Source: a virus. Taken from it: a stretch of DNA of 58,579 bases. The translations under genes were made by a program, and so were the position numbers. Of the stretch, positions 4,992-52,519 are shown one piece after another (within the stretch, counting starts at the first letter, position 1; each line of letters starts with the position of its first letter). The notes below the pieces were generated by a model. The model saw only the letters and a list, made by a program, of their open reading frames with translations, was not told where the DNA came from and searched no databases. The stretch covers positions 1-58,579 of IMG/VR virus record IMGVR_UViG_3300020034_000014; one strand, given 5' to 3'.

Positions 4992-4993
4992 CC

Positions 4994-6686: not shown

Positions 6687-6699
6687 GGGATAAATTAAA

Positions 6700-7048: not shown

Positions 7049-7051
7049 ACG

Positions 7052-7489: not shown

Positions 7490-7540
7490 AATCCACGGAC
7501 CCACACGGGTATTTTTAATTTAACTATAAAGGGTAATCGC

Positions 7541-10092: not shown

Positions 10093-10467
10093 ATGAAGCT
10101 AATTCCGTTAGGCTCAAAAGTAGTAATCACTGTCGGCGCGATCAAAGGCAAAATTGTTGCGCATGCCGTGTATCAAAAGCAGCAGACAACGTATTGCATT
10201 CAAACCGGCGACGGTTCGCAATGGTGGCTCGAATCAAATCAATTCGCCGTGAAGACGTTAGCCACCAAACGCAAAACAAAAAAGCGCAAGGCATACAAGA
10301 AACGCGCGAAGAAAACGACCAAGCGCACCGCGAAGAAACGCGCCTATCGCAAAAGACGCAAGCCGCGTGCAAAGAAAAAAGCAGCAGAGCGCAAGACGGC
10401 GAAGCCTGCACGCATTAAACAAATCGTTGACGAAATGAAGGCCGCAGTAAAAGCCACCAAAAAATAA
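10093..10467 (+). CDS. Histone H1-like basic protein with small N-terminal barrel
   Basis: Encodes 124 residues. Residues 1-55 form a beta-rich domain resembling an SH3-like or KOW-like barrel. Residues 56-110 are almost entirely Lys, Arg, Ala and Thr, with repeated KKRA and KRTAKK units, followed by a short helix. This composition suits a DNA- or RNA-coating protein. It lies between the DUF2800 nuclease and the DUF2815 ssDNA-binding protein, so a role in handling replicating DNA is reasonable but inferred. Confidence 0.6.
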   Translation: MKLIPLGSKVVITVGAIKGKIVAHAVYQKQQTTYCIQTGDGSQWWLESNQFAVKTLATKRKTKKRKAYKKRAKKTTKRTAKKRAYRKRRKPRAKKKAAERKTAKPARIKQIVDEMKAAVKATKK

Positions 10468-10493
10468 TCACGCACACCAAAGGAATTTTATTT

Positions 10494-11177
10494 ATGGCAT
10501 TCAGAGCAAAGGTAAGGCCCGGCGCGCGTGGCTCCATGAAAGCAAAGCGCGAAGACGGCGAAGGGCGCGACAAGAAAAAAGATGATCCGCGCGTATGTCA
10601 AACACCCGTAGGCCGCGTTGGTTTCTGTCACGTATGGGAACCGCACAAATTTGATGATGACGACGACGAACAGGAGGCAAAATTTTCGCTTAGTCTAGTG
10701 CTAGACGAAGACGAAGATATTTCCGCCATCAAGAAATCATGCATCGCTGCCGCATATGAAAAATGGGGAGAAGCGGAAGCAAAAAAATTAGCGAGTTCCG
10801 GCAAACTCCATTTGCCATACAAACGCGCCGCGCAAGAATACGCGGAGTATGGCGAACCATATAGCGACGCGAGCGAAGAACAAATTATGATAAGCGCGCA
10901 CACTAACCAACAGCCGGGCATCGTGAATAATCGCGGTAAGAAATTGGTAGACGAAACCGATTTTTACAAAGGCTGCTACGCGCGCATGTCGGTATTTTGC
11001 AGCGCTTACGAATATCGCGGCAAGCGTGGCATATCGTTACTGTTGAATAACGTGCAACGCGCATCACTCGGCAAGAAAATTTTAGGTAGCCGTAAGGATG
11101 CATCGGAAGAATTCGACAATATCGAAAATGACGATGATGATATTGTTGATGATGACGATGATGCAATATTCGATTAA
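10494..11177 (+). CDS. ssb: DUF2815 single-stranded DNA-binding protein
   Basis: Encodes 227 residues. The sequence from VCQTPVGRVGF through KKSCIAAAYEKWG, LHLPYKRA, GCYARMSVFCSAYEY and GISLLLNNVQ follows the DUF2815 family, whose Enc34 phage member is known to bind ssDNA with an OB-like fold. The last 25 residues are Asp/Glu-rich and end DDDDAIFD, an SSB-type C-terminal tip that probably recruits replication partners. It should protect ssDNA for the polymerase and helicase encoded downstream. Confidence 0.88.
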   Translation: MAFRAKVRPGARGSMKAKREDGEGRDKKKDDPRVCQTPVGRVGFCHVWEPHKFDDDDDEQEAKFSLSLVLDEDEDISAIKKSCIAAAYEKWGEAEAKKLASSGKLHLPYKRAAQEYAEYGEPYSDASEEQIMISAHTNQQPGIVNNRGKKLVDETDFYKGCYARMSVFCSAYEYRGKRGISLLLNNVQRASLGKKILGSRKDASEEFDNIENDDDDIVDDDDDAIFD

Positions 11178-11738: not shown

Positions 11739-11812
11739 GAGCCGGTAACTCAACTGGATAGAGTAGCGTATTTCTAATGCGCCTGTTGCAAGTTCAAATC
11801 TTGCCCGGCTTA
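11739..11812 (+). tRNA. tRNA-Arg (anticodon UCU)
   Basis: A full cloverleaf can be folded by eye: acceptor GAGCCGG/CCGGCTT with one G-T pair, D stem ACTC/GAGT, anticodon stem GCGTA/TGCGC around the loop TTTCTAA (anticodon TCT), five-base variable loop, and T stem GCAAG/CTTGC with loop TTCAAAT. The CCA end is not encoded. It would read AGA codons, which are rare in many Proteobacteria. Confidence 0.92.
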
Positions 11813-11824
11813 CCTCTCACAAAT

Positions 11825-19268: not shown

Positions 19269-19486
19269 GCAAAAAACCATACCAACGGATTATCATTAAA
19301 GAAAACTTTGAGCGCGCTTGGGAAACATCAGATATTTTTTGCCCATCGTGTGGCAAACAAAAAGTTTGGGTAGCTGTTGATTCAAGTATTCAATGTGCAT
19401 GCAAAGCGTGCGGAGAATATTTTTCTATCAATTCAATGATTGAAAATGAAAAAAATATGCCGCCTATGGATCAATTTCCAGAATGA
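19265..19486 (+). CDS. Zinc-ribbon protein, copy B
   Basis: Encodes 73 residues with DIFCPSCGKQ and CACKACGEYF. Same length and layout as copy A at 17171. It is coupled by ATGA to the helicase and to the following glycosyltransferase. Both copies may be adaptors for the replication machinery. Confidence 0.65.
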   Translation: MSKKPYQRIIIKENFERAWETSDIFCPSCGKQKVWVAVDSSIQCACKACGEYFSINSMIENEKNMPPMDQFPE

Positions 19487-20211
19487 ACACGCCACTATCA
19501 ACCGCGCGCCCGCCTGTTGGTGAAGACGTGGAAATATATGTGCTATCGAAGGACCGGCACCGCCAGCGCTCCACAACGCTGCAAACATTAAAAGATTCCG
19601 GGCTAGGCCCGCGAGTCAATCTTGTTGTGCCACACGATCAAGGCGAAGACTATATAAAATTTTCAAAGCATTACCAATGCGCTAGAGTTTTAAAATGCAA
19701 GGCCGATACGCTTGACAAGACGCGCCGGGCGATTGGTGAACGTGCAAGCGAAAAATTTATATTACTAGATGATGACCTTGAATTTTTCAAAGACGCGCGC
19801 CCGCATGCGGCCCGGCCCATTGGCGAACACTTCAATAACATTTTGATTTTGGTAAGCCGCATCCTTGATACGTGCGCTAGTTGTGCGATCACCACACGCC
19901 AAACCATAGACAACAAGATTCCCGGAAGGCCTAACCGCTACGGTAGCAAAGCCCTCGCGTATCGGCGCAGAGCATTTATGCAGTGCGATCCGCCGATAAC
20001 GAAGAAACACTATCACGTAGACGTAGCCGTTCAACTCGCACACATGGGCTACGAAAATTTCCTGATTGAAGAATTTATATGTAGGCAACAATCGCCTATT
20101 GCCTCAATGAAAGGCATGAATAACGACGATGAAATACTGCTGCGAAAATTTAAAGGCATTGAATGCAATCTAACGAAGGCGCAGCGTCACGCGCTAGATG
20201 ATATTTTATAA
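19483..20211 (+). CDS. GT-A fold glycosyltransferase-like protein
   Basis: Encodes 242 residues. The opening VEIYVLSKDRHRQRSTTLQT strand, the middle LVVPHDQGEDY, and the metal-binding ILLDDDLEFF near residue 95 follow phage GT-A enzymes, including those proposed to glycosylate modified bases (TET-associated type). No TET/JBP dioxygenase is visible in the genome, so DNA glycosylation is only one option. Its location at the end of the replication block rather than in the late glycan cassette favours a nucleic acid or host target over a virion target. Confidence 0.6.
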   Translation: MNTPLSTARPPVGEDVEIYVLSKDRHRQRSTTLQTLKDSGLGPRVNLVVPHDQGEDYIKFSKHYQCARVLKCKADTLDKTRRAIGERASEKFILLDDDLEFFKDARPHAARPIGEHFNNILILVSRILDTCASCAITTRQTIDNKIPGRPNRYGSKALAYRRRAFMQCDPPITKKHYHVDVAVQLAHMGYENFLIEEFICRQQSPIASMKGMNNDDEILLRKFKGIECNLTKAQRHALDDIL

Positions 20212-22050: not shown

Positions 22051-22114
22051 GTGAAGCGTGGTAGATGAAACACGCCACACGAAACTAAATCAACTTAACT
22101 CTAAAGGAAATAAA

Positions 22115-22984
22115 ATGTTTGCCACGAATCAAAATTTGAATACCACGTTCGCACCGGGACAACACCGCATCCAACGCGAAGGCTTCGGCTTTACCCGCGC
22201 TCTATCGAATGATGACCTTATGAAAATTGCCCCGGCGATCTTTGCCGATGCTGCGCACGCTTCACGCTCAGCACGTTACGGCTACGTATCAACCGTGCAA
22301 CTCGTTGACAGTTTGCGCGCAGAAGGCTTTTTGCCGGTTAGCGCTAAGTTTGTGAATACCAAAGATAGTTCAAAGGATGGTTTCCAAAAACATATGATGC
22401 GCTTCCGCCGCGCGGAACAATTGGAAGCCGCAGAAGCCCGCGAAGTTATTTTAGTGAACTCGCATGACGGCTCTAGCCAGCTTGAATTAATGGCGGGTAT
22501 CTATCGCATGGTTTGCTCTAATGGTTTGATTCTCGGCAGCAATGATTTCTCTATGAAAGTGCGCCACAACGTCAACGCAGTAGACAATGTAATCGAAGGC
22601 GCGTATCACATCGTTAAAGACTTCGATAAAGTAGGCGAGCAAATCGAAGGCATGAAGGCAGTTAAACTTGAGCGCCCCTTGCAAATCGCCTACGCCAATG
22701 CCGCGCTTGCAATGCGTTACGAAGACGTGGCGAACTGTGGCGTCAAGCCGGAAGCGTTGATACTGCCGAAGCGCACCGCCGATGCAGAGCCTAGCTTGTG
22801 GAATACTTTTAACGTGGTGCAAGAACGCATGATTCAAGGCGGTATACGCGGATGGAAGAAAAACGCCAACGGCCAAACCAAACGCGGAACGTCGCGCGCC
22901 ATTAACGGGATCAGCCAGAATGTTGCCATCAATCGCGGCTTGTGGACACTTGCCGAAGAAATGCGCAAAGCGATCAACGCTTAA
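22115..22984 (+). CDS. DUF932 family protein
   Basis: Encodes 289 residues from the ATG at 22115, preceded by AAAGGAAATAAA. The order FGFTRALSNDDL, GYVSTVQLVDSLRAEGF, MMRFRR, LVNSHDGSSQLELMAGIYRM-V-CSNGL and the later KVRHNVNAVDNV are typical of the DUF932 (phage/plasmid TIGR03299-like) family. Its biochemical function is unknown; members are common on plasmids and phages near replication genes. It is a single large gene with its own promoter module. Confidence 0.82.
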   Translation: MFATNQNLNTTFAPGQHRIQREGFGFTRALSNDDLMKIAPAIFADAAHASRSARYGYVSTVQLVDSLRAEGFLPVSAKFVNTKDSSKDGFQKHMMRFRRAEQLEAAEAREVILVNSHDGSSQLELMAGIYRMVCSNGLILGSNDFSMKVRHNVNAVDNVIEGAYHIVKDFDKVGEQIEGMKAVKLERPLQIAYANAALAMRYEDVANCGVKPEALILPKRTADAEPSLWNTFNVVQERMIQGGIRGWKKNANGQTKRGTSRAINGISQNVAINRGLWTLAEEMRKAINA

Positions 22985-38220: not shown

Positions 38221-40688
38221 TATGTGCCCCGTGCCGCTGATTGTATGGCGTGCCCCAAGTCGCGCAGTGTTTCGCGCGTGCCTTGCACCTTGCCAATGTT
38301 GCGCCCGCCTACCATCAATTCAAGCGTGCCCATATTCTCAGCGTCCGCAGTGTTACCACCGCCGACTATGCCGCCTTCCGCGAAACGCGGCAAGCGCATT
38401 TTATTGATATCATCCATGAACTTTGTGCCGTAGTATTTTACAGCGGGAACTTGTGTGATTGCTTCGCCCGAAGTTATCCGCGCCAGAATGTTATCGGCGC
38501 GCGGGTTTGGCGCGATGCCCGGCGCAATACCACCGCCCGCGAATGCTTGGACCGTTGTATTACCCGGCCCGTTGATCTGCGCGGCAATGGCGATTTGAAA
38601 CGGCGTATCTGTCAGTGCCTTTTTAATTTTGTCTATCGTGCTTTGCAAACTTGCGTCATCGATGCCAACTTTCAATGATGACGCATCGGTTTGTAATTTT
38701 GTAATACTCTCCTGCAACTTTGATATTTGCGCGGTAACAGCTTCAATACCTTTCTGTGCGGATGTAGCTTGAGCAACTTCGGCTTCGCGCTTTTTGTTGA
38801 GTAATTCTTCAACTGCTGCGTTTGCTTCACCAAAAATTCTTTCGCCAATAAGGATTGCGTTAGGATCGATTTTTGTTGATTTTGCAATTTCACCGGCAAG
38901 CCCGGTAATCTCTTTGCGTATCTCCCGTGCGCGATCAAGGTTCCCGCGCAATACGGCGGATTGTAATTCATCAAGCTTTTCATTCGCCGTGCGAATCTTA
39001 ATACCGAACTGCTGTTGCTCTGTGAATTGCGAAAGACGTAGGCCCGCGAATAAGTCTTCTCCCTCTTTTCGATTGTCACGAATCTCTTTATCTATATCCG
39101 CTATTGCTTGCTGCGATTGTTTGTATTGATTAGTGAACTGCTGTTGTAGTTTTACCAAGTCGCCATAGTAGGCAACCGAAATATCAAGGCGTTGCTTTGA
39201 AGACTGCCGCGTAATCTCAGCCTGCACGCGCTCATTATTTTTTGTGTCGCCTAGATTCTTTTGAGCAAGTGCGCGCAGTGCGTTTTCTTTTGCTTGTGCT
39301 AACGCGATTTCAACCGTGAAAGCATCGCGCGCCGCGCGTATGCGTGCATCGGTTTGTGCGCGCTCCAATTGCGCTAAGCGTTGCGCCGCGCCTACTTGGT
39401 CCGGCCCGCCCGTGGTGCGCGCTTCAAGCAATGCGCGTTGTTGCTGAATTTGATCTTCAATAAATTTCCGGCGTAAGTCGGACTGCGCTTTTAATGATTT
39501 ATCGGTATCGTCGCCAATCTGTTTATTGAGTATGGCGAGCGCGTCGCGTGCCGCCTTACCTGCTAATCCTAGTTGATCTTTGATATCTTGCGTAGTCTTA
39601 TTCGTAACAACAGGTTTAATCGCCAGCTTGGGCGGTTCTTTAGCTAGATCAGTGAATATCTTTATAACATCGTCAACAGCGCCGAATCCAACGTGTTGCA
39701 AATTTTCAAAGAATTTAGTTGATGCATCGTTCGCTACTTGAATTGCGCCTTTAACATTTCCAGAAAACAAAGCAACAAGGGAAGCGCCAAGGCCCGTAAT
39801 AACATCGGTAACTGTAATTACGCTTCGTCCAATTATATTAGTGAATACACTAACTAGGTTAATAATAAACTCTAGCACTTTTCCGGTAACTTCACCGAAG
39901 CGTTGCATAGAGTGAACACCCTTATCTGTAACGGCTTCATTAAATTCATTAAATGTTTTTTGAATTGCTGGAACTAGTCCAGTTAAAAACTGTAATGCCA
40001 ATCCCTCAGAGCGTTTTTGCATCAACGTGAAATTATCATTCATCGATGCAGCCGCATCCGCAAGTTCCGTTGACACAATCAAGCCTAGACGTTCCGCTTC
40101 CGCGCGCACCGCCGCAAAACCTTTCGTGCCCACGTCATTCAATAGCGGTATCAGCTTCGCCGCGTCTTTACCGAATATGGCAATCAATGCATTAGTGCGA
40201 TCCAAGCCCGCGCCCATACCCGCCGCCGCGCGTGCGATCTTTTCAAACGATTGGTTTACATCCAATCCAACAAGATCACGGCCCGCTAATCCCAAATCAG
40301 CGAACGCGGTAGTCTGCGCCTCAGAACCGGCGAGCAATTCGCCGAGTGAACGATTCAAACGAACTAATGATTTTGCCAATTCTTCATTAGATACATTCGA
40401 CATATTCGCGGCAAAAGAAAGCGCGCTCAAGTCTTCGGTAGTGCCGCCTACTTTTTGTTGTAACTTGCCGATTTGATCAGCAGCGTTTAAGGCACTCTTG
40501 CCAATGGCAACCATGCCCGCTGTGATGGCGGTAAATCCAATCGCAGGAATTAAATTTTGTAAGCCGCCGAAAGCTTTTAATACACTGTTGCCTGTTGTCT
40601 TGCTCTGCGCGCTAATGCGCTGCATGCCTTTAATAATTTCGTCAATCCCTTCTGGCGAAATTTTTACGCGGATATCCGGCGTTGACAT
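38220..40688 (-). CDS. Tail tape measure protein
   Basis: Encodes 822 residues. The N-terminal region carries GLQNLIPAIGFTAITAGM and FGKDAAKLIPLLNDVG, typical of tape measures, followed by hydrophobic segments around residues 255-300 and long helical coiled-coil stretches to about residue 700. The C-terminal Gly-rich GGIAPGIAPNPRADNILARI and RFAEGGIVGGG segments are also typical. At about 1.5 angstrom per residue this predicts a tail near 120 nm. It follows the frameshifted chaperone genes, as is usual in siphophages. Confidence 0.92.
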   Translation of the reverse strand: MSTPDIRVKISPEGIDEIIKGMQRISAQSKTTGNSVLKAFGGLQNLIPAIGFTAITAGMVAIGKSALNAADQIGKLQQKVGGTTEDLSALSFAANMSNVSNEELAKSLVRLNRSLGELLAGSEAQTTAFADLGLAGRDLVGLDVNQSFEKIARAAAGMGAGLDRTNALIAIFGKDAAKLIPLLNDVGTKGFAAVRAEAERLGLIVSTELADAAASMNDNFTLMQKRSEGLALQFLTGLVPAIQKTFNEFNEAVTDKGVHSMQRFGEVTGKVLEFIINLVSVFTNIIGRSVITVTDVITGLGASLVALFSGNVKGAIQVANDASTKFFENLQHVGFGAVDDVIKIFTDLAKEPPKLAIKPVVTNKTTQDIKDQLGLAGKAARDALAILNKQIGDDTDKSLKAQSDLRRKFIEDQIQQQRALLEARTTGGPDQVGAAQRLAQLERAQTDARIRAARDAFTVEIALAQAKENALRALAQKNLGDTKNNERVQAEITRQSSKQRLDISVAYYGDLVKLQQQFTNQYKQSQQAIADIDKEIRDNRKEGEDLFAGLRLSQFTEQQQFGIKIRTANEKLDELQSAVLRGNLDRAREIRKEITGLAGEIAKSTKIDPNAILIGERIFGEANAAVEELLNKKREAEVAQATSAQKGIEAVTAQISKLQESITKLQTDASSLKVGIDDASLQSTIDKIKKALTDTPFQIAIAAQINGPGNTTVQAFAGGGIAPGIAPNPRADNILARITSGEAITQVPAVKYYGTKFMDDINKMRLPRFAEGGIVGGGNTADAENMGTLELMVGGRNIGKVQGTRETLRDLGHAIQSAARGT

Positions 40689-40689
40689 T

Positions 40690-41016
40690 TTATTTTAAAA
40701 TTTCCGGTTTCATCGGTGCTTTACTTTTCTGTTTCGTGTGTGGCGCAAGGCTTGCCCATACAATCATATCGTGCCGGTAAGACTCTAGCGCCGCCTTAAT
40801 CAAAACACTTTGCGCCGCGTGCATCAATTCATAGATAGGCCAATTCGCAACACGCAACGCTTTATCGTAATCAAATCCGCAAACTTCCCGCGCAACTTCG
40901 GCCCACTCACCAAGGACTAATGTAAGGCCGTAACTCCCGGCGTTTCGCTCGGCCCGCTCTGCCCCTTGTCGGCTAAAGAGTTTTGGAAACGATTCAACCA
41001 GTTTAGTCCTTGCCTG
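40690..41016 (-). CDS. T-domain extension of the tail assembly chaperone (-1 frameshift product GT)
   Basis: An open -1 frame runs from the slippery site to TAA at 40692-40690, adding about 108 residues. Its sequence reads like protein (AGSYGLTLVLGEWAEVAREV, then WPIYELMHAAQ), and it has no ATG-led start of its own near the beginning. Fused to the upstream frame it gives a protein of about 226 residues. This matches the lambda G/GT arrangement, where the T part contacts the tape measure while G coats it during tail assembly. The extension ends one base before the tape measure start. Confidence 0.82.
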   Translation of the reverse strand, partial: QARTKLVESFPKLFSRQGAERAERNAGSYGLTLVLGEWAEVAREVCGFDYDKALRVANWPIYELMHAAQSVLIKAALESYRHDMIVWASLAPHTKQKSKAPMKPEILK

Positions 41017-41369
41017 AAAAAACCGAATGTAACTTCCATCGCGAGCGATAAAACCTGTTCGCGATCATCTTGTGTATCGCACTTGTTAATGTGCGCAGCG
41101 GTAAGCTTTGCAACTTCGGGCGTCCACGATTGTTCGTCAACGCCTTCCGGTAACAGATAGCCCGCGATCAATTCTGCCGCTTTGCCTGAATCAAGTATGC
41201 AAGTTTGCAAGCGAACTAAATACGCTGCGCTATCTTCACCTTCCATTGCAATAACTTTATCCGCGCCTATGAAGCGTATCCACTTCATAAGGTAATGGTC
41301 ATTGATGACGGTGCGCCGCTCAAAATCTATGACACGAAAGCGACGCCCGCCTAGTTTAATTTCATCCAT
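40917..41369 (-). CDS. Tail assembly chaperone (G-like, unshifted product)
   Basis: Encodes 150 residues. Helical with an acidic middle (DEIKLGGRRFRVIDFERR at the start; a long helix from residue 95). It lies between the tail tube and tape measure genes, the standard place for the chaperone. A perfect slippery heptamer at codons 117-118 allows the -1 shift described for the extension. Confidence 0.82.
   Translation of the reverse strand: MDEIKLGGRRFRVIDFERRTVINDHYLMKWIRFIGADKVIAMEGEDSAAYLVRLQTCILDSGKAAELIAGYLLPEGVDEQSWTPEVAKLTAAHINKCDTQDDREQVLSLAMEVTFGFFRQGLNWLNRFQNSLADKGQSGPSETPGVTALH
41016..41022 (-). other. Slippery heptamer for programmed -1 frameshift
   Basis: On the minus strand the sequence is T-TTT-TTC, in phase with the chaperone frame (codons GGT-TTT-TTC). 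It fits the X-XXY-YYZ rule, and the -1 frame stays open from here to 40690. Downstream structure was not computed. Confidence 0.8.
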
Positions 41370-41376
41370 AAACTAA

Positions 41377-42171
41377 TTACAGCGATGCGCCCGCGCGGTC
41401 AAGCGTCCCGAAAGGGTCAGCCGGATGGTTTTCTGCGTCCGACAGAATCGAAAACGACAAATTGAACGCTGCATAATCTTCACCAATCAGGCCCAAGGCA
41501 CCATCAGGCGCAATCGATGCACGCCAGATTTCCAGCTTGTCATGCGCGCCCTTCGCGTCGTTATTTGAATCGTCAGCAAGGAACAACAGTGAACACGTTT
41601 TCCCAGACTCGCGGGCGATGGCGATGTTTTGCACATTCACTTGCGCCGCGTCAAAATCAATCGTCAAGTTGTCATCGTCTACAATCGTTACCGCCAATGC
41701 GTTGTCAAGAATTTGCACAACACCGAACGCGGTATTTACTTTGTAGTCTACATCCGCTTGAAGAATCACCGAACCGACAGCAACGACAACGTTAGAAACG
41801 CTGCGCTTACCAAGTTTGTAATACCCGCCACGTTTCACATTGGCGATATTGACAGTCAGACCGGGCGCAGCCGCTTGGTTATCTGTCAGCTTCGTGCCCA
41901 ACAGGAACAGCGCGAGATTGTTTAGCGTTTGTTCATTGAGCGTTGCCGTCAACGTATAACTTGAACGCAATACGCGCCGGTCAATCAGTGCGCCGCTTTT
42001 TTCCGTTGAACTGAATAGCTCAGCAGTCGTGATATCCGAAGTTAAATCAATCTGGTTTGCGTTGCCAACGAAATCATACTTGCCGCTCGGCAACCCATCA
42101 GCCCCATATACATCAATCAGCAACGAACCTTTGCCGAGTTTTACATACTCACCGCGCGCCGGAAATGGCAT
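41377..42171 (-). CDS. Major tail tube protein
   Basis: Encodes 264 residues. A beta-rich protein beginning RGEYVKLGKGSLLIDVYG, with DLTSDITTAELFSSTEKSG and NVKRGGYYKLGKRSV, followed by a C-terminal DFNLS-type strand region. The pattern and the position directly before the chaperone and tape measure genes identify the tube subunit. There is no sheath gene, so the tail is non-contractile. Confidence 0.8.
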   Translation of the reverse strand: MPFPARGEYVKLGKGSLLIDVYGADGLPSGKYDFVGNANQIDLTSDITTAELFSSTEKSGALIDRRVLRSSYTLTATLNEQTLNNLALFLLGTKLTDNQAAAPGLTVNIANVKRGGYYKLGKRSVSNVVVAVGSVILQADVDYKVNTAFGVVQILDNALAVTIVDDDNLTIDFDAAQVNVQNIAIARESGKTCSLLFLADDSNNDAKGAHDKLEIWRASIAPDGALGLIGEDYAAFNLSFSILSDAENHPADPFGTLDRAGASL

Positions 42172-42183
42172 TTTAATTTGCTC

Positions 42184-43008
42184 CTATGTTGTGATAACAG
42201 ACTTCAAAAGCCCCCACGTTGACGGCTGTGCAAATTCTTCTATTTGCCACTGCCGCCACGCCAAAGCGTGCGCCCATTTCGTTCTATCAGGCTGCACCAG
42301 AATATCTGTAAAGTGATGCGCTGCCACGTCCCAAGCCATCGCGCCCGCATCCGTAGCGATCACTGAAACACCCGCTAACGCTGCATCAACGCCCGCATTA
42401 CTATTATACGTTACCGCTACGATTGCATGATTCAATGCGTTTTCCAGCGTGCCGCCTGCAATCTGCACATCTTTAGCGGTAGGCTTGAAATTCGCCGCTA
42501 TAGGATGCGGCCTGAATGTTACGGGATATCCGCGCGCCTGCATAGCTTCGCACGCGCTGTTAGCCCACTTTTTAAAATCAACGCCTCGCAATGATGTGTC
42601 TGTAGGCACCTGCCCCAAGACTAGCGCGTAGCTGCCGTCCTTTGGATCACGCCAAGGCTTTATCAGATCATTAAAATGGTTGCCCCAACGCAAGCCGCTA
42701 TCGTTGCATGCCGGGAACTTCGCGCGCCCGTTAAGCCCATTCCATCCGGCGCTATACCAGTGGAAACGGTCAGCGACATACCCGCGCTCTATGACTAAAG
42801 TGTTTATGCCTTTTTCATAGAACTGCCGACCAATGCGCCAGCCCCACACAACAACAGCGTTGAAATTTAGCTTCGTGTGTAGAACATCAAAACTCCGAAT
42901 GTGTTCTATCGTCGGCACATCACCACACACACGCATTGAATCCGCCAACAAGTTAGCAATACAAACTTGGTCATCGTAGGCGCGGTTCAACGCTATCAAT
43001 ATTTTCAT
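42184..43008 (-). CDS. Glycan cassette: GT-B-like protein, paralog of the next upstream gene
   Basis: Encodes 274 residues. The N-terminal half has VVVWGWRIGR and TLVIERGYVADRFHWYSAGWN; the C-terminal half has VTFRPHPIA and a NALNHAIVAVTYNSNAGVDAALAGVSVI segment. This last stretch (residues in brief: VTYNSNAGVDA-ALAGV) is how KpsC-type and other GT-B capsule enzymes bind donor and mark invariable Ser/Glu positions. It shares layout with the protein at 43005-43820, so the pair arose by duplication. It is the last cassette gene, 12 bp before the tail tube gene. Confidence 0.6.
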   Translation of the reverse strand: MKILIALNRAYDDQVCIANLLADSMRVCGDVPTIEHIRSFDVLHTKLNFNAVVVWGWRIGRQFYEKGINTLVIERGYVADRFHWYSAGWNGLNGRAKFPACNDSGLRWGNHFNDLIKPWRDPKDGSYALVLGQVPTDTSLRGVDFKKWANSACEAMQARGYPVTFRPHPIAANFKPTAKDVQIAGGTLENALNHAIVAVTYNSNAGVDAALAGVSVIATDAGAMAWDVAAHHFTDILVQPDRTKWAHALAWRQWQIEEFAQPSTWGLLKSVITT

Positions 43009-43820
43009 CGATTACCACCGTTGAATTCTTTCCAGCAAGAACCATTCATGATTTCCGCCATGCTCCATTGATTCGCGGCCAATTCACATGCCCACGCTAA
43101 ACGATTAAGTGGATAGTGTGGCGTTTCGATTTTCGCAAAATCCTGTTCACACATATGGTATGCGCTGCATTCAGTTTTAGGCCCATCACAAAACACGGGC
43201 ACACCCTCTAATAACGCTTCCGTTGCCGTGTTGCTTGCGTATGTCACCAATGCATGCGCGCCTTGCAATGCCTCTTGTATGGGACTGCTGCGCCGCTCGT
43301 GTGGGCTAGGTTTGGTGCGAACAATAATATCTCTGTCAGTGTTCGCGCGCAGCGTTTCAATTGTATTTTGTAACCATGTGCCAAGGTCAAGCCCGCGCCA
43401 TCGGCCATACGATGCACCGGGCGGGCACACCAATACAAAATTACCTTGTGTCCACGGTTTAATTTCGAGTTTCAAATCTTGCCATCGGCGCAAATGATAC
43501 CGCGTAATCTCTCTAGGCTCGCCGCTCACCGCATACGCGCCGCGCGTGACACGGTAGTAGCCGCTGAAATGTCCCGGCTTGAAGTAGCCGTTATCGACAT
43601 ATACCCAATTGCGCCCGCCCATGATTGCATCATCAAGAAACGAACGCAGCCCGTAAGCGTCACCATACACAACGATACCGCCAGGCGACAAACCTACCGC
43701 ACTTTGATTGATGATGCGATACGGTAACGCGCTACCCATTGCGAAGCGCCGCCCGACACGATCAGAATTGCGGTTTCGCACACCGTAGACAGTATAGCGA
43801 GCGCCGTTAGAAACGTTCAT
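43005..43820 (-). CDS. Glycan cassette: GT-B-like capsule-type transferase
   Basis: Encodes 271 residues from the ATG at 43820 (ATGA overlap with the gene before it). A NWVYVDNGYFKPG segment, FVLVCPPGASYGRW, RTKPSPH, and HALVTYASNTATEALLEGV follow the KpsC/CMP-Kdo transferase-like pattern. Function is probably sugar transfer; donor and acceptor are unknown. It is coupled to its paralog downstream by ATGA. Confidence 0.6.
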   Translation of the reverse strand: MNVSNGARYTVYGVRNRNSDRVGRRFAMGSALPYRIINQSAVGLSPGGIVVYGDAYGLRSFLDDAIMGGRNWVYVDNGYFKPGHFSGYYRVTRGAYAVSGEPREITRYHLRRWQDLKLEIKPWTQGNFVLVCPPGASYGRWRGLDLGTWLQNTIETLRANTDRDIIVRTKPSPHERRSSPIQEALQGAHALVTYASNTATEALLEGVPVFCDGPKTECSAYHMCEQDFAKIETPHYPLNRLAWACELAANQWSMAEIMNGSCWKEFNGGNR

Positions 43821-44527
43821 GGTGCATGCACCTGTTGATACCATTCCTGAATGTAAGGCATCATATCCGGCGTACCATTTGTAAAATGAATTGCTTTAGG
43901 AATAATGTTAGGGTCACTTACACCGTAAAGCCAATTCCATTCTAGCGGCAACGCGCCTATCAATTCGTCATCACCTAACCATTTGAATTGATGCAGCCAT
44001 AGGCCCGGCATCGTGTTTAACTTTTCAATCGTTAGCAACGCATTCGCAGAATGGCGCAAGTTGAACAGCATCAAACTAGACCAAAGTTTTTTATCATAGT
44101 CTGTTTGCAAATATCCGCGCATTTTTATATCTGACGCACGTTTATAACTTTTATGTTTAACACACATCACTGCATAGCGATCATCGGCCAACTTAAACAA
44201 TTCGCCAACATTCGCGCGGAACATGAAATCCCCATCGCAGAATAAAGCCCAATCTATATTTTCCGGCGCTATGTGCGGAACGAAAAAACGTGATAGCGCA
44301 AATTGTGTTGCCATCGGTGCGTTACTAATCACATCATACATTTGCCCATTAGCGTTTTGCTTCATTGGCCTACGATACATTCCAGAATTTATCAATGGCG
44401 CAAGGTCTAAATAGGCTACGTCATATCTTCGCGGGCGTGCCATCGTTCGCAACAATGAATAGTGGCACACATCCGCGCTCACTGTTTCCCGCGAATCGCG
44501 CCCTACAAAAATTGTGCCTATCGTCAT
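43817..44527 (-). CDS. Glycan cassette: GT-A glycosyltransferase-like protein
   Basis: Encodes 236 residues from the ATG at 44527, which overlaps the FkbM stop as TGATG; the longer frame from 44626 would overlap by 100 bp. It opens TIGTIFVGRDSRE, and WALFCDGDFMFR near residue 100 is a D-x-D metal site. A later WLGDDELIGAL and HFTNG resemble GT8/GT-A enzymes. Acts in the same coupled unit as the other cassette genes. Confidence 0.65.
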   Translation of the reverse strand: MTIGTIFVGRDSRETVSADVCHYSLLRTMARPRRYDVAYLDLAPLINSGMYRRPMKQNANGQMYDVISNAPMATQFALSRFFVPHIAPENIDWALFCDGDFMFRANVGELFKLADDRYAVMCVKHKSYKRASDIKMRGYLQTDYDKKLWSSLMLFNLRHSANALLTIEKLNTMPGLWLHQFKWLGDDELIGALPLEWNWLYGVSDPNIIPKAIHFTNGTPDMMPYIQEWYQQVHAP

Positions 44528-45180
44528 CAATCCCAACTCAAAATAAAATCGCCCGATATTATGTCGCGCAATTTCGCGCCATGATCTTGCAACCGTATTA
44601 CTGCTTGTGTTTCCTCTAAGCCCCACTTTTGCGCGCGGCCCGGTTTCTGTTCAACGATGATGCACGGCTTGTCTCGCAGTATGGTTTTCTCACCGCCTTG
44701 CAAAGCAAATAGCTCGTAACCTTCGCAATCCAATTTGACGAAATCGACCATTTGCAAATTGAAACCGTCAAGCGTTTTTAGTGGCGTATCCCCGCCTTGC
44801 GCCTGATTTACCCAAGTATCACCGCTACTGTGTGGGCTTGTGTGCATCGTCACCATTGAATCCTCAAACCCTAACGCGCAGTGATGTAGCTGCACGCCTG
44901 AATATTTAGGGTCAAGATTTTTCACGAAGCACTGACGATGCGCTTCCATCGGCTCGAAAGCGTGAAGCATTTTAAACTTCTTCACTAGATGCATTGACCA
45001 TAGACCGCAGTGCGCGCCAACATCTACCGCCGTGCGGAATTGTTTGACATGCTTCAATGCTGCCTCTAGTTTATGGTATTGGTATGTTGGTTTGCCATCA
45101 ACAACCTTATTAATTTTTTCCATCCATTCCACTAGATGCGTTTCACCATCCGGCAAAAATAGACCTTTGTAATTCAGCAT
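44527..45180 (-). CDS. Glycan cassette: FkbM-type methyltransferase
   Basis: Encodes 217 residues. SAM-binding motif AVDVGAHCGLWSMHL (residues about 50-64), HAFEPMEAHRQCF, LKTLDGF, and the FkbM signature VDFVKLDCEGYELFALQGG near residues 145-163 (DCEG). FkbM enzymes O-methylate sugars and are common in surface glycan clusters. It likely caps or decorates the glycan made by the neighbouring transferases. It overlaps the GT9-like gene by seven bases. Confidence 0.8.
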   Translation of the reverse strand: MLNYKGLFLPDGETHLVEWMEKINKVVDGKPTYQYHKLEAALKHVKQFRTAVDVGAHCGLWSMHLVKKFKMLHAFEPMEAHRQCFVKNLDPKYSGVQLHHCALGFEDSMVTMHTSPHSSGDTWVNQAQGGDTPLKTLDGFNLQMVDFVKLDCEGYELFALQGGEKTILRDKPCIIVEQKPGRAQKWGLEETQAVIRLQDHGAKLRDIISGDFILSWD

Positions 45181-45983
45181 AATTTTGTTCCCAATAATTT
45201 GAATGAATCAAGCACCTGTTTTACTGAAATCTTTTCCATTTCCGCCCTACAGTGCGCGCATGGAAACCGACTCCCGCAAGTATCTTCTGTGCCTAAATTA
45301 ATATGCCCTTCGTATCCGGTCATCGATGGCGCAGTAAAGCCGCCGAAGATAACCACGCTTGGTTTGCAAAATGCAGCCGCCGTATGGTGTAACCCGCCTT
45401 CTGGCAATACGCATGCGGTAGCCCGTGCGATCACAGCGGATGCATGACGCATTGTCGGCGTGCATACCCAATGCGTGCCCGGTAGATTCTTTCCGCCTTC
45501 CGGCCCTAGTTGCACAACAGTAATTTTTGCCGCGCGAAATTCATCGACCAACGCTTGCCATTTTTTAATACCCCATTGCTTATTTATAGTTGCCTTCGCT
45601 TTGCTACCTGTTGCCTTGTTGTGAGATTCAATCACAACGAACGGCTCAAGGCCGCGCGTTGCATTGCGCCCAAAAATAATTTCTTTATCACTTAACGTAA
45701 TGATGCCCCGCTTTGCACGGTAGGCGCGATTGTGTAGCATGTGTGTATCGTTATAGCCCAACAGATACCCGCGCGCATGGCCTGAATTAATAATATCGGT
45801 GCAATCACGGCCATCAACCAATTTAATATTTTGATCGATGAATTCCAAATTTTCCCAAGCTAAATGCAGCGGGCGAACGAAGCGCCGATAATCAAGTATC
45901 CGCACCTTGCGCCCCGTCGCCTTGTATGCCGCGTAAGCTTCACCACTGGCAAGCACTTCGTCACCCCAGCCCACAATTTTCAC
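45174..45983 (-). CDS. Glycan cassette: GT9/heptosyltransferase-like protein
   Basis: Encodes 269 residues. The C-terminal half carries ITVVQLGPEGGKNLPGTHW and ATACVLPEGGLHHTAAAF-C-KPSVVIFGG, which is the donor-binding pattern of the heptosyltransferase/ADP-heptose type (GT9, GT-B fold). The N-terminal half is a degenerate acceptor domain. Four cysteines near the C-terminus (CGSRFPCAHCRAEM) may bind metal. Coupled to the upstream gene by a four-base overlap. Confidence 0.65.
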   Translation of the reverse strand: MKIVGWGDEVLASGEAYAAYKATGRKVRILDYRRFVRPLHLAWENLEFIDQNIKLVDGRDCTDIINSGHARGYLLGYNDTHMLHNRAYRAKRGIITLSDKEIIFGRNATRGLEPFVVIESHNKATGSKAKATINKQWGIKKWQALVDEFRAAKITVVQLGPEGGKNLPGTHWVCTPTMRHASAVIARATACVLPEGGLHHTAAAFCKPSVVIFGGFTAPSMTGYEGHINLGTEDTCGSRFPCAHCRAEMEKISVKQVLDSFKLLGTKLC

Positions 45984-46546
45984 CTTTCGTATTTATGGAA
46001 CGTGCCTTCTAACGGCCCGCCGATAATTTTTATATTGGCATCAGGCACCTTGCGCGCGAACGATTTCCAGCGGTTAATATGATGCGAAATATGCTGCACT
46101 GTGCCGCTACTTTTTGCGTCCGGCGTGTGAAAATATACACCGTCGCCAGTATAACAATCGATACCGATAATAATTACAGGATTACATCCCATCTTGTAAG
46201 CACAGTGCGCTGCTACAATTGCGCCATTGTGTTCCACGGGTTGCCGTGCTAACAAAAAATCACCATCGGCAACGGCGTGCGGAGAGAGTATAGGCACGCA
46301 AAATTTTGTTAGCTTCGCGGTTTTTCCGCCACCTATCGGTAACGGCTTATCTAGGATGCGATCAATCGCTACGATGTAATCACATTTACATTTATCCATA
46401 ATGCAACCGTGCTGATTTACACTTATACGCACAGCAACTTTAGGACATTTTAAATATTGTAAAGGCGCGGAAGGCCCGCCGCCTATAATTATCGCAGGGT
46501 AGTTTTCATATATGCCATACAGATTTTCAAACGGCGCAGCACTCAC
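45980..46546 (-). CDS. Glycan cassette: MptE/DUF115-like protein
   Basis: Encodes 188 residues. PAIIIGGGPSAPLQYL at the start (glycine loop), VRISVNQHG, DYIVAIDR, and GCNPVIIIGIDCY later fit the DUF115/MptE-like fold, which in surface glycan clusters resembles sialyltransferase-like nucleotide-sugar enzymes. It is the first cassette gene and overlaps the stop of the tail terminator-like gene by four bases, so the cassette is translationally coupled to a neck gene. Confidence 0.6.
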   Translation of the reverse strand: MSAAPFENLYGIYENYPAIIIGGGPSAPLQYLKCPKVAVRISVNQHGCIMDKCKCDYIVAIDRILDKPLPIGGGKTAKLTKFCVPILSPHAVADGDFLLARQPVEHNGAIVAAHCAYKMGCNPVIIIGIDCYTGDGVYFHTPDAKSSGTVQHISHHINRWKSFARKVPDANIKIIGGPLEGTFHKYER

Positions 46547-46983
46547 GATTCAGTATCTAAATTATCGCGTTTAGTTTGGTAGTCAACATTGAACACAATT
46601 GAACCAGCGATATAGATACGATCCATAATGCCACTTTCCCACTTAGATTCTAGCTCAGTCATTTGCATAATTTTTGCGCTGTGCAAATCACCAAGGCGCG
46701 CGATGGCATGAGAAATTAGCGGTTCTATACTGTCATCCATTTGGTCCGGCGTATCGCAAGCGTTAATGCATTGCACCGCGACGCGCAGCGATCGCCGTGC
46801 TACAGGCCCGCGCGAATTGCCCGGTATGGCTACGTCTTCATTGACAAAGAACACCGCTATAGCCGCTTCCCGGATCACGTTACCCGGAATCCAACGGCGT
46901 TTAGTAGCGGGCGGAATGTCTACCGGCAAATCAATATTAAGCGCCGTAATTATTTCATCGCGAATATCAAGGCGTCGTGACAT
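46543..46983 (-). CDS. Tail terminator-like / neck protein
   Basis: Encodes 146 residues. An alpha/beta protein with GNVIREAAIAVFFVNEDV, then GNSRGPVARRSLRVAVQC, and later strand-rich repeats, as seen in lambda gpU-like tail terminators of this phage type. It lies between the FII-like joiner and the cassette, so it is the last head-tail joining gene before the insertion. Start overlaps the joiner by 17 bases. Confidence 0.6.
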   Translation of the reverse strand: MSRRLDIRDEIITALNIDLPVDIPPATKRRWIPGNVIREAAIAVFFVNEDVAIPGNSRGPVARRSLRVAVQCINACDTPDQMDDSIEPLISHAIARLGDLHSAKIMQMTELESKWESGIMDRIYIAGSIVFNVDYQTKRDNLDTES

Positions 46984-47290
46984 TTTTAGTTGCCAAGTCT
47001 ACGGTAACTTTTGTGGTTTCGTCGCCATGCTCAGGAAAACAGCGCCGAAAAATATATGCGGTATTGCCTATGGTCACTTCGTCGCCTTCAACCAACGTAT
47101 TCACATCGTTAAATTGGCAATCGAAAGACAGATCAAACGAAGCAATAGAACCATCTTGTAATTCAACAACACGGTAGCGCTTGAAAAATATCCCTTTTAC
47201 TTCATTGCTGCCAAATACCATAGTCTCACCGATTGCACCGAAAATAATTCTATCTCCGGTATTGCGCATCCAATCGGCGAGACTCGGCAT
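46967..47290 (-). CDS. Head-tail joining protein (lambda FII-like)
   Basis: Encodes 107 residues. The order IFGAIGETMVFG-S, KGIFFKRY, a Cys-containing strand, GDEVTIGNTAYIF and a terminal beta segment follow the lambda gpFII-type joiner. It lies right after the major capsid gene, as expected. Confidence 0.65.
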   Translation of the reverse strand: MPSLADWMRNTGDRIIFGAIGETMVFGSNEVKGIFFKRYRVVELQDGSIASFDLSFDCQFNDVNTLVEGDEVTIGNTAYIFRRCFPEHGDETTKVTVDLATKNVTTP

Positions 47291-47303
47291 CTTTCAATCA
47301 CGC

Positions 47304-48317
47304 TTAGCTGTGCGCCAGACCTTGACGCAGAACGCTAGGACGTGTGCAATAAAACAGCGGATTGCTTTGAGCGTAAACGTCAACCCAACGCTCAGCGGGA
47401 TCAGGCACGATCTTAGAGTAAATCGGAATGCCTACCGTGTTCACCGTATCGATAAAATTAGCAGGCCCAAAAACAGCGCGGAACAATCCCGGCACGCCTA
47501 GCGGAAAAAAGCGTGCTTCCGAATCAGCGATGAAATCGACACTGCCAACCTTGCCCCGGTATTCTTCAAACAAAATCCCCGCATAGCCGAAAGTGCGACG
47601 CGCAAAAGTATCGCGCAACATTTCGCCTTCGCGCCATCGCTCATACGCTACGCGCGTTTCCGGCTCGGCTACGAGCATATCCATGAACTCCGAACCTACC
47701 AGCGCGCCGACACCACGCGACGGCGTAGCGCCTAGCAAATCCTCTTGCCGCCGTTGAATCTGGTGTATAGCCGTCCGGATGCTGCCTAGTGGCGGAGTAG
47801 AACCAAAATCAAAGTTTACCGGCGCATCTTCGGTAACTCCGAATTCGTCAAACAGATCATATAAAACTGTCGTGCCGTCCGCATCCATCACCCGGCCCTT
47901 AACAGCGCCAACGCGCATATGCTCGAAAGTAGCTTCCAAGCCTTGCACCATCGTTGCTTGTTTCTCGGCAACCTTGCCTTGAATGGTTTCAAGTTCCGAC
48001 TCAGTGCCAAACGCGCGGATGCCTTGAATTTCGTCAGCCATCAAACGATCTTCTACCGGCAAGTGAACAACATTCAACGGATGCACCTTACGGCCTTCTT
48101 TCAAATTCTGCGCCGCAGGCCCGCCGCGTGGTGCGGTCGGAACCAGATACAACACACCGCCCTTTTCTTCAATCTGTGCGGTCAGTGTGTTAATGCCCGA
48201 CTCCTCAAAAAGCCCCATAGCGCCAAGGCGTCCCGGCACAAATGGAATCTTATTGATTTTGTCGGTTAGTGTCGTGAGCGAAAATGCATCCGCCCGGAAC
48301 ATATCTAACATGGACAT
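47304..48317 (-). CDS. Major capsid protein (capsid E family)
   Basis: Encodes 337 residues. N-terminal MFRADAFSLTTLTDKINKIPF and LGAMGLFEESGINT, the central VAEKQATMVQGLEATFEHMR, KGRVMDADGTTVLYDLFDEFG, and the terminal TVGIPIYSKIVPDPAERW region are characteristic of the lambda gpE-type (PF03864) capsid. A decoration gene lies immediately before it in transcription. Confidence 0.92.
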   Translation of the reverse strand: MSMLDMFRADAFSLTTLTDKINKIPFVPGRLGAMGLFEESGINTLTAQIEEKGGVLYLVPTAPRGGPAAQNLKEGRKVHPLNVVHLPVEDRLMADEIQGIRAFGTESELETIQGKVAEKQATMVQGLEATFEHMRVGAVKGRVMDADGTTVLYDLFDEFGVTEDAPVNFDFGSTPPLGSIRTAIHQIQRRQEDLLGATPSRGVGALVGSEFMDMLVAEPETRVAYERWREGEMLRDTFARRTFGYAGILFEEYRGKVGSVDFIADSEARFFPLGVPGLFRAVFGPANFIDTVNTVGIPIYSKIVPDPAERWVDVYAQSNPLFYCTRPSVLRQGLAHS

Positions 48318-48368
48318 TTTAAATTTCTCCTAATTTTTAGTAGTGCGTTTTTCTTTGCTGCCGTTCGC

Positions 48369-48746
48369 TTACGTGTTTTGTGTTTCTTTGGTAGTCGGCC
48401 CGTAGCGCGTGATGATGCCTTGCGCCAACAGATCAACAATAGCGCTATCGCGCGCCGCGTCGTTTTGTGAATCCAGAAATACCAAGTCTTCGCGCCGGAT
48501 TTCGGCATCACGGCGAATCACTGCGCCGCGAACAACACCGTCCGTTGCATCAACTTCGGAACACAAAACGCCTACCGCCGTGCCACCAACGAACGGCGTA
48601 TAGTTCGCGCCCGACAACTCAAGCACGGTTCCCGCTTTGATCACAGCCGCGCCGGTAATATTTGCGTTTTCACGCGAGCGCGAATGATTTGCTTCGCTAA
48701 CAATAAAGCCTTCATTGTGCGGAAGCACTTCGGTTTTCGTAACCAT
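48369..48746 (-). CDS. Head decoration protein (lambda gpD-like)
   Basis: Encodes 125 residues. FIVSEANHSRSRENANI, ITGAAVIKAGTVL-x-L, GVLCSEVDA and the RRDAEIRREDLVF segment fit the gpD decoration family, which binds three-fold axes and stabilises the capsid. It lies between the protease and the capsid genes, as in lambda. Confidence 0.85.
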   Translation of the reverse strand: MVTKTEVLPHNEGFIVSEANHSRSRENANITGAAVIKAGTVLELSGANYTPFVGGTAVGVLCSEVDATDGVVRGAVIRRDAEIRREDLVFLDSQNDAARDSAIVDLLAQGIITRYGPTTKETQNT

Positions 48747-50221: not shown

Positions 50222-51148
50222 TTACGCGGCCAGTAATAGAAAAACCGGATCACATCCTATTGTGAATTCGCAGGCCGCATTATATCTGACATATTTGCGT
50301 CTTGTTGGGTATGGAATAAACTGGTAAACGCGCGCCGTTTGAAGCGAACACGCGGCCTCACCACCGAAGCGTAGCCCGCCCGATGCAACGTAGACATACT
50401 CGCGCGCCCGCGTAGGCGGGATAGGTTTGTAGCGGTCAAGTGTCGGGAAACTGCCGCGATGCTCAAACACTGTGCCCGCACCGTGCCCAATGCCGCCCGT
50501 GACACTCGCGCGCCGGTAAGACGTGACCGCAACGCCACCGAAGACAACACCGCCCGCTGCAATGTAGTTATAAGGCGTTTTACTGGTAAGCGCCGCACCG
50601 CCGAAGTGAAGCCCGCCCGATGCCGCGTAAGTATCCGACTCAACAACATCAGCCGCACCACCAAATCGCGCGCCACCTGTTGCGACGTAGATATACTCAT
50701 TTTCTTCTGAGCCTGCTTCATACTCGGTATCAGCCTCGCCGCCTAAACGAATCCCGCCCGTTGCTTCGTAAGAATCTGATTCAGTTACATTTGCATCACC
50801 TGTAAAAACAATACCGCCTGTTGCAACATGAACAGCCACGCGCACAACATCAGCAACACCGCCAAAAAGTAAGCCACCTGTTGCCTCGTATGAATCGGAT
50901 TCAATTACATCCGCTGCGCCGCCGAATATCGCGCCGCCCGTTGCAAGATAATTGATTGTGCGCGCGATGCCCGCCGCGCCGCCTAGTGTTGCCCCGCCCG
51001 TTGCTTCGTATGAGTCAGATTCAATTACATCAGCGACACCACCATAAATCAGCCCGCCGAATGCAATGTATTCATAAACGGTAAAACTAGGCGGCGCGTC
51101 TTCGTCACCAGCAATCGGAAAATCAGATAGTGGTGAATTTCCGAACAT
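50222..51148 (-). CDS. Gly-rich tandem repeat protein (11 copies of a 20-residue unit)
   Basis: Encodes 308 residues. About eleven units of roughly 20 residues run from residue 26 to 290, each following Y-x-A-(T/S)-G-G-x-x-F-G-G-x-A-D-V. The last three are more diverged. Such a repeat suggests a beta-solenoid or fibre stalk, with one unit per turn. It lies between the LamG-type protein and the protease gene, a place that has no counterpart in lambda, and it could be a head-decorating or fibre protein. No known enzymatic motif is present. Confidence 0.65.
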   Translation of the reverse strand: MFGNSPLSDFPIAGDEDAPPSFTVYEYIAFGGLIYGGVADVIESDSYEATGGATLGGAAGIARTINYLATGGAIFGGAADVIESDSYEATGGLLFGGVADVVRVAVHVATGGIVFTGDANVTESDSYEATGGIRLGGEADTEYEAGSEENEYIYVATGGARFGGAADVVESDTYAASGGLHFGGAALTSKTPYNYIAAGGVVFGGVAVTSYRRASVTGGIGHGAGTVFEHRGSFPTLDRYKPIPPTRAREYVYVASGGLRFGGEAACSLQTARVYQFIPYPTRRKYVRYNAACEFTIGCDPVFLLLAA

Positions 51149-52519
51149 TTAAAAATCCGGATGGGGTGCGATTGGTGGCGTAAAATTACCGTTGTAACGT
51201 GCAACGCCTTTTGTTACGCGGAATTCATCAATGCGCCCGTTGAATGATGCCGTTGCCGCATTGCTCGCCGCACCAATTGCGAATACATTTGTATTATTTA
51301 TAATTGATGCGCTAGAAGTTCCAGTAGCGCCCGCGACGCCATTTAAAAATGTGCGGAACGTATTTCCTTCACGACACACGGCAACATGATAAGTTGTATT
51401 CGCTGCGATAGTGCCAATTACAACCGCGCTGCACATATCCCATGTTGTGCCGTTTGATGAACAATACCATTCTAAACTTGCACCGTTTCGATAAACAGTG
51501 TAACCAATTCCACCAACATTTATTTTTGAGAAAATATAAGACGTTCCAGTAACGACCACCGGGCGTATTAATAACTCAATTGTAAAATTGCCCGTGCCGA
51601 ATTCAAAATCTGCATGATCCGGCGTTGTAATTACGTCGCCCGTGCCGTCGCCAACATACGATGATATGCCGCGCAATGGCGTTGTTGTTGTATGTATTGC
51701 ATTGCCCGCCGCCGTCCAAGTTTTTCCTTTCACATCGATAAACGTAATCGAATTAATTACGTCTTCAAAATGCATCAACGAAACGACACTAAGAAAGAAC
51801 GGATCACCGTCCGGTATAGTTTCAAAAATAATGGTGAACGTTGCATTTAAAAATACCCCACTCATATCAGAATTTAACGCGGGATTGCCATCATATTTTT
51901 CTATGAAAGCAAAGTTACCACCTTGCGCAACGGCAATAACTTTAAGGTCAAGATTATTTGAATAGGTAATGCTCCCCTGTTCATGAATCGCGCCCGCAGG
52001 CAACGTAAAAGGAAAACTGCCTAGTATTGCTTGGTTGCTGTTTGCTGTTGTTGGGTATTCAATTTCAATGGTCATCACCAATAGATGCCCATGTTTCCAG
52101 TAGCGCCCATTCCTAGTAACCAGTGTAAGCGCCGCGCCGCTGCCATCGGTAAGCAAAAAATTACCGTGTTGTGGTTGAACAATATTCCCAAGCGCCGCAG
52201 TCAGCGCCGCCGCTGGCAACACCAGCGAAATAAAAAGCGCTTCGTTTATTGTCGCGAAATCAACCGGCGCATCGCTATTGCTAGATGAATATGTAGAAAT
52301 GCGCTCAAGCGTATTTAAGCTTGCGTTGTATCGGCAGTGCGCAACTTCCCAATCGAAAAACGTTGCACCATCAGCGACGCGAATTACGGCATCAACCGTA
52401 TCATTATTGAGGCACACCGCAGCAAAAGAACGATACGAGTCTAACGCTCCCTGTAGCTCAAAATCGGCGCTAAAGGGAACAGCATTTTCTTTGATGCGGT
52501 CGGCTCTTACATACGGCAT
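51149..52519 (-). CDS. Virion appendage protein with C-terminal LamG-type lectin domain
   Basis: Encodes 456 residues. The N-terminus (ADRIKENAVPF, ELQGALDSYRSFAAV, DWEVAHCRYNASLNTLERIS) follows the adaptor-like start common to phage tail fibre proteins. Residues about 275-450 form a LamG/concanavalin-like domain: GISSYVGDGTGDVITTP, then FELLIRP-type strands, and the ending FNGRIDEFRVTKGVARYNGNF. LamG domains bind carbohydrates. It is encoded among head genes, not in the tail-fibre position, which suggests a head appendage or a relocated fibre. Confidence 0.65.
   Translation of the reverse strand: MPYVRADRIKENAVPFSADFELQGALDSYRSFAAVCLNNDTVDAVIRVADGATFFDWEVAHCRYNASLNTLERISTYSSSNSDAPVDFATINEALFISLVLPAAALTAALGNIVQPQHGNFLLTDGSGAALTLVTRNGRYWKHGHLLVMTIEIEYPTTANSNQAILGSFPFTLPAGAIHEQGSITYSNNLDLKVIAVAQGGNFAFIEKYDGNPALNSDMSGVFLNATFTIIFETIPDGDPFFLSVVSLMHFEDVINSITFIDVKGKTWTAAGNAIHTTTTPLRGISSYVGDGTGDVITTPDHADFEFGTGNFTIELLIRPVVVTGTSYIFSKINVGGIGYTVYRNGASLEWYCSSNGTTWDMCSAVVIGTIAANTTYHVAVCREGNTFRTFLNGVAGATGTSSASIINNTNVFAIGAASNAATASFNGRIDEFRVTKGVARYNGNFTPPIAPHPDF

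Follow-up and report, generated by a model that had tools for sequence, protein, structure and literature searches.

The 58,579-base IMG/VR virus record IMGVR_UViG_3300020034_000014, analysed whole and called the window here, carries six intact minus-strand open reading frames (ORFs) at 42184-46546, between the tail-terminator and tail-tube genes. Their predicted roles, five sugar-transferring enzymes and one FkbM-type methyltransferase, make up a glycan-building cassette that is real and conserved, that looks capable of making a short methylated sugar chain and that most likely serves the virion. Probably the cassette is expressed late and its product decorates proteins of the phage's own particle (virion O-glycosylation), with an acceptor that we infer. 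The six genes, with the letters used below for their families, are as follows.

45980..46546, minus strand: gene 1 (X1, letter M), MptE/DUF115-like (Maf_flag10, pfam01973) putative glycosyltransferase, 188 amino acids, GTG start, from profile matches
45174..45983, minus strand: gene 2 (X2, letter 9), GT9 (heptosyltransferase-like) glycosyltransferase, 269 amino acids, from PF01075
44527..45180, minus strand: gene 3 (X3, letter F), FkbM-family S-adenosylmethionine (SAM)-dependent methyltransferase, 217 amino acids, from PF05050 and phrog_8156
43817..44527, minus strand: gene 4 (X4, letter 8), GT8-like GT-A glycosyltransferase, 236 amino acids from the ATG at 44527, from phrog_28018
43005..43820, minus strand: gene 5 (X5, letter B), GT-B-like glycosyltransferase, 271 amino acids from the ATG at 43820, from alignment with gene 6 and Caulobacter phage homologues
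42184..43008, minus strand: gene 6 (X6, letter b), GT-B glycosyltransferase resembling retaining beta-Kdo transferases (Kdo, 3-deoxy-D-manno-oct-2-ulosonic acid), 274 amino acids, from its AlphaFold2 (AF2) fold and motifs

The minus strand of the window holds a lambda-like late operon that runs through terminase, portal, protease, decoration protein, capsid, FII-like head closure, tail terminator, the six-gene block, tail tube and tape measure; major head protein, protease, portal and terminase were all identified upstream of the neck genes that precede the cassette. Four genes of this operon bear directly on the argument.

47304..48317, minus strand: major capsid protein, a candidate acceptor (phrog_29, 6e-56)
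46967..47290, minus strand: head-tail attachment or head closure protein, FII-like (PF05354, 2e-7; phrog_82, 2e-6)
46543..46983, minus strand: tail terminator, U-like, the upstream flank of the cassette (phrog_4204, 0.0019; aligned across five related phages)
41377..42171, minus strand: major tail tube protein with an Ig-like domain, the downstream flank and a candidate acceptor (phrog_807, 3e-42)

The initial annotation had placed the block within the virion operon between neck and tail tube genes, coupled by overlaps of one to seven bases. Both statements hold: the flanks are identified as terminator and tube, and the overlaps, in order from the tail-terminator gene, are 4, 4, 7, 1, 4 and 4 bases. 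These values use the ATG starts at 44527 for gene 4 and 43820 for gene 5, which give the 1- and 4-base overlaps; the longer starts of the ORF tool (GTG 44626 and ATG 43844) are unlikely. A 12-base gap with an AGGAG, the tube gene's own, precedes the tail tube gene, and promoter- or terminator-like sites across 40500-48500 were no more frequent than in shuffled sequence. The G+C content of the block (0.483) is like that of the rest of the phage. The distance from capsid to tape measure is 6.6 kb in the window versus 2.5 kb in L014, a distant capsid relative; no near DNA relative of the window was found among phage records.

Family, profile and fold evidence also bears out the identities first assigned to the six genes (MptE/DUF115-like, GT9-like, FkbM, GT-A and two GT-B-like), and family motifs are kept in all of them except the fifth. 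Gene 1 matches phrog_4603, an alpha-2,3-sialyltransferase family, at 3e-4, and its profile of 38 relatives matches Cst-II (GT42) at 7e-6, MptE HPPK at 0.016 and PDB 5mu5, which we take to be a Maf structure, at 0.054, over short stretches only and more weakly for the last two; by these profile matches it is a predicted member of the Maf_flag10/MptE/Cst-II group. Its relatives in L114, L192, L200, L201 and L027 carry a C-terminal extension of about 40-60 residues, alike by eye, that is absent from the window protein; this mini-domain is too divergent to identify, its best PHROG match (0.007) being a family of unknown function. Gene 2 lies above the PF01075 cut-off (6e-6; 26.1 bits against 22), retains a GD motif and CX5CX2C, and its profile matches WaaF/WaaC structures at 5e-7 and 5e-4. 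A likeness to the protein heptosyltransferase TibC was considered for it and dropped, because the profile matches WaaF and WaaC, not TibC. Gene 3 is above the PF05050 cut-off (4e-12; 47 bits against 22.7), matches phrog_8156 at 6e-27 and has a DVGA motif. Gene 4 matches phrog_28018 at 9e-45 and Pfam GT8 at 0.005, below the cut-off; its DXD and its C-terminal HXXXGXP, a metal-binding His motif, are invariant in an alignment of six diverse phages, and its profile matches PDB WbbM at 1e-3. A GT8-like homologue in Synechococcus phage S-SCSM2R (L026, 6998-10523) has KdsB- and KdsA-annotated genes for the supply of CMP-Kdo (CMP, cytidine monophosphate) in its vicinity and is not part of a virion module.

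Genes 5 and 6 have no significant family in Pfam or PHROGs, and alignment puts gene 5 in the family of gene 6. The AF2 model of gene 6, built with 38 relatives (predicted local distance difference test, pLDDT, 82), gave Kdo transferases (WbbB, KpsC and KrkA) as all of its top 28 PDB matches, at E values of 3e-7 to 2e-5. The protein has QVPTD at 133-137 and RPHP at 166-169, and a QXXXD nucleophile and a (K/R)XHP CMP-binding motif mark the retaining beta-Kdo transferases (PMC12887879, PMC10148158). It thus resembles WbbB (GT99), KpsC (GT107) and KrkA (GT140) in GT-B fold and in both motifs and differs from them in having no significant sequence match and an acceptor that is probably not capsule or O-antigen. 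A phmmer search against solved structures returned nothing up to E 10, the fold search alone giving matches; because it has no significant sequence similarity to a characterised member, we describe gene 6 as predicted to work like a beta-Kdo transferase and do not file it as one. Both motifs occur in 4 of 136 scanned members of the gene 5/6 family and in one more in podovirus ct7QV12, so the Kdo assignment covers gene 6 and not its family. The ct7QV12 homologue (L234, 4792-5613), with QPDAD and RPHP, sits upstream of terminase and close to a gene annotated as glycosyltransferase tibC.

The same families recur together in many other phages, which makes the block more than a chance assembly. In viral contigs the GT8 profile matched at least 587 stretches and the GT9 profile 147; these loci were found only by similarity to cassette profiles and so form a sample, not a survey. 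When 80 loci were picked solely by GT9 similarity and families were counted within 6 kb, at least three cassette families were present in 71, and 35 of the 36 loci with at least 5 kb on both sides had two or more other families. Of 248 neighbours, 244 were co-oriented, and in 55 of 58 cases the MptE-like gene led. Selection by GT8 alone gave looser loci (three families in 13/80), many of them on short contigs. Around 48 cassettes, PHROG matches of 156 flanking genes had known functions that were nearly all virion parts (portal, major head, adaptors, closure, Hc1, neck, protease, tail fibre and tube), the tally being of families rather than genes, with several families possible per protein; the place within the virion module differs from phage to phage. 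Methyltransferases, hexapeptide acyltransferases and sugar epimerases occur as additional members of other cassettes, as they do in glycan loci. In cells the GT9 profile is rare: across 84,980 species, each represented by a single genome, it gave 12 matches.

The search for the same insertion elsewhere that the initial annotation had proposed succeeded: tail-tube and GT9 searches found four relatives, the viral contigs L114, L200 and L201 and a 51 kb contig from a Gammaproteobacteria bin, L192. All four have terminator, MptE-like gene, variable genes and tail tube, with the terminators aligned, so that a cassette-type insertion occupies the terminator/tube junction in 5/5 lineage members found, the window included; no empty site was found among these five. 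Gene orders are M-9-F-8-B-b in the window, M-9-F-B-b in L114, M-B-F-9 in L201 and M-B-B-9-F-8 in L192. L200 retains the first gene as the sole member of the cassette set; the ORFs behind it include a methyltransferase confirmed by Pfam and three without a family match. In 19 phages with 38-45% identical capsid proteins there was no cassette near the capsid gene, some of these stretches stopping before the tail.

Related blocks also stand in named genomes. On the Bradyrhizobium elkanii plasmid pUSDA31-2 (L233), probably a phage-plasmid, a cassette at 2526-7560 lies between portal and tail genes in the annotated order portal, ORF, MptE-like, GT8-like, GT9, two methyltransferases, ORF, GT-B, more ORFs, tail genes. 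The plasmid carries a tailed-phage virion module and a second MptE-like gene (10398-11033) directly before the tail terminator region. In the giant Caulobacter phages (Dolichocephalovirinae), C1 gp162-gp167 and CcrColossus gp126-gp131 form a nearly complete counterpart, with MptE-like, two GT-B, GT8-like, methyltransferase and GT9 genes in one block, which follows the tail-fibre genes and precedes the lysis genes in an order unlike the window's. C1 gp166 (L022, 14795-15322), annotated as an FkbM methyltransferase, matches Methyltransf_23 and not FkbM. The phiCbK genome paper does not discuss this block, the string 'glycosyl' being absent from it, and phiCbK did not appear among the matches.

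The flagellin glycosyltransferase Maf offers a model for the attachment step. Its central domain is pfam01973 and resembles Cst-II, and it O-glycosylates a structural protein directly in the cytoplasm with a CMP-activated ulosonic acid as donor, the Clostridium botulinum enzyme adding Kdo or N-acetylneuraminic acid (Neu5Ac) to flagellin Ser/Thr (PMC11339370). Gene 1 is like the Maf_flag10/pfam01973 domain but is a single short domain. Because it nearly always comes first and stands without the other families in some phages, we propose that it makes the protein-sugar link. From what was obtained directly, namely gene content, motifs, the predicted fold of gene 6, coupling and recurrence in virion modules, we infer the sugars and their donor, the acceptor, the order of addition and the benefit. 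Gene 1 would start the chain in the cytoplasm by linking a sugar from a CMP-activated donor, plausibly the host's CMP-Kdo, to Ser/Thr of tail tube or capsid, both of them abundant virion proteins, much as Maf does on flagellin. The chain would then be extended by the Kdo-transferase-like gene 6, the GT9 enzyme, the GT8-like enzyme and gene 5, and the FkbM enzyme would add a methyl group to a hydroxyl, perhaps capping the chain. Keeping the first gene constant and varying those behind it would allow new glycan structures without a new attachment step, and the likely benefit would be a changed particle surface. The 19-residue hydropathy mean is at most 1.40 for every cassette protein of the window, fitting a soluble acceptor; some GT9 and GT-B homologues of other loci have hydrophobic stretches above 1.6.

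Several observations count against virion glycosylation. Gene 1 reaches 7e-6 against PF01973, but at 26.3 bits it falls under the curated cut-off of 34.6; it is without Maf's outer domains, and its low-confidence AF2 model (pLDDT 68) found no PDB match at E<=0.001, so that its assignment rests on profiles. Gene 5 has RTKP only and is without QXXXD, the Kdo nucleophile motif. Lone GT8 homologues of Mosig and S-SCSM2R lie outside virion modules, and a comparison of capsid, decoration and tube termini between carriers and non-carriers for a mycobacteriophage-like acceptor tail gave no clear or consistent feature. Position among virion genes tells timing, not substrate. Lipid-linked saccharides are the usual substrates of GT9, KpsC-like and Cst-II-like enzymes, which makes the lipopolysaccharide (LPS) core a possible target.

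The main rival, because the enzyme families of the cassette usually serve such a purpose, is that late in infection they alter the LPS core or the capsule of the host, so that progeny do not stick to debris or other phages are blocked. In its favour, heptosyltransferases make up family GT9, gene 6 is similar to Kdo transferases that act in capsule and O-antigen synthesis, and gene 1 is similar to Cst-II, a lipooligosaccharide (LOS) sialyltransferase; a glycosyltransferase beside late genes in Gratiaviridae (PMC8008677) and one in a Sinorhizobium prophage (PMC5537653) were likewise interpreted as changing the host surface. We nevertheless hold it unlikely, since the cassette accompanies virion genes in unrelated phages and a late-operon position leaves little time for surface remodelling. 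The 25 extra families listed for the cassettes include no flippase, polymerase or lipid-carrier initiator, and the window proteins have no long hydrophobic stretch, although core modification is compatible with both. The suggestion that the product is tied to the virion, made in the initial annotation, is favoured by the comparative evidence; tail tube and capsid are candidate acceptors, and the further suggestion that the glycan hides the particle or alters adsorption is hypothetical.

Alternatively, the MptE-like first gene could be a virion assembly or morphogenesis factor and the others passengers in a permissive insertion site. MptE-like genes do turn up with none of the other cassette families, near virion genes in L027 and also at loci L208-L232, follower genes vary in order and content, and L200 keeps just the first; this is improbable all the same, as the passengers are non-random, the same glycan families recurring together, and the variable additions are again sugar-modifying enzymes. 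A third rival, in which the enzymes would attach a sugar to modified bases in the phage DNA, is improbable too. Phage glycosyltransferases often modify DNA, and the window has a separate TET-associated-glycosyltransferase-like gene at 19483-20211, but that gene is far off in another block that looks early, whereas the cassette keeps to virion genes. Its members are closer to enzymes of LPS, capsule and flagellin glycosylation than to base glucosyltransferases, and the families listed for the cassettes include no base-modifying enzyme. The gene at 19483-20211 (plus strand, in the replication block; PF20691 at 2e-4, below the cut-off, and phrog_842 at 8e-13) points to a possible DNA glycosylation separate from the cassette.

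Glycan genes in virion operons were already a known kind, as a block in phage Corndog and the reported glycosylation of mycobacteriophage capsid and tube attest, and the initial annotation overstated the case in taking a dedicated pathway of this sort to be undescribed. Corndog and its relatives have an O-methyltransferase, two glycosyltransferases and a putative N-acetylglucosamine (GlcNAc)-transferase (gp35-gp38) between portal and protease, for which capsid modification was proposed (PMC4351075), and Corndog is one of the phages whose virion proteins are reported to be glycosylated (PMC12363180). Later papers cite Freeman et al. 2023 for glycosylation of mycobacteriophage capsid and tail-tube subunits (PMC12619734, PMC12363180). 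Compared by description only, the Corndog (cluster O) block is like the window's in having co-oriented methyl- and glycosyltransferase genes in the virion operon, and differs in position, in having four genes rather than six and in naming no MptE-like or GT9 gene. Like the mycobacteriophage-type virion glycosylation systems, the window phage encodes its own glycosyltransferases. In the partial literature covered on FkbM, glycosyltransferase, phage and capsid or structural genes, we found no description of this cassette.

Elsewhere in the window, two extra genes lie between portal and protease on the minus strand, at 51149-52519, with a C-terminal Laminin_G_3 lectin-like domain (PF13385, 6e-19), and at 50222-51148, without a family match. 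On the plus strand are a DUF932 protein gene at 22058-22984 (1e-35) and a tRNA-Arg(tct) gene at 11739-11814.

Virion glycosylation is proven in few phages, and the cases we found are mycobacteriophages. Versions of the cassette within the virion genes of many unrelated phages suggest that decoration of virions with sugar is much commoner than these proven cases. More tentatively, it is conceivable that Gram-negative phages share a modular virion O-glycosylation island, in which a Maf-like enzyme uses host CMP-Kdo, or a different ulosonic acid, to glycosylate a virion protein directly, and interchangeable glycosyl-, methyl- and acyltransferases give each phage its own coat sugar, much like O-antigen loci. 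If the cassette does glycosylate virions, its recurrence would make virion glycosylation common in proteobacterial phages and would supply a marker gene for it, with a bearing on adsorption, particle stability and the recognition of phages by other organisms, and it would add new protein-modifying enzymes.

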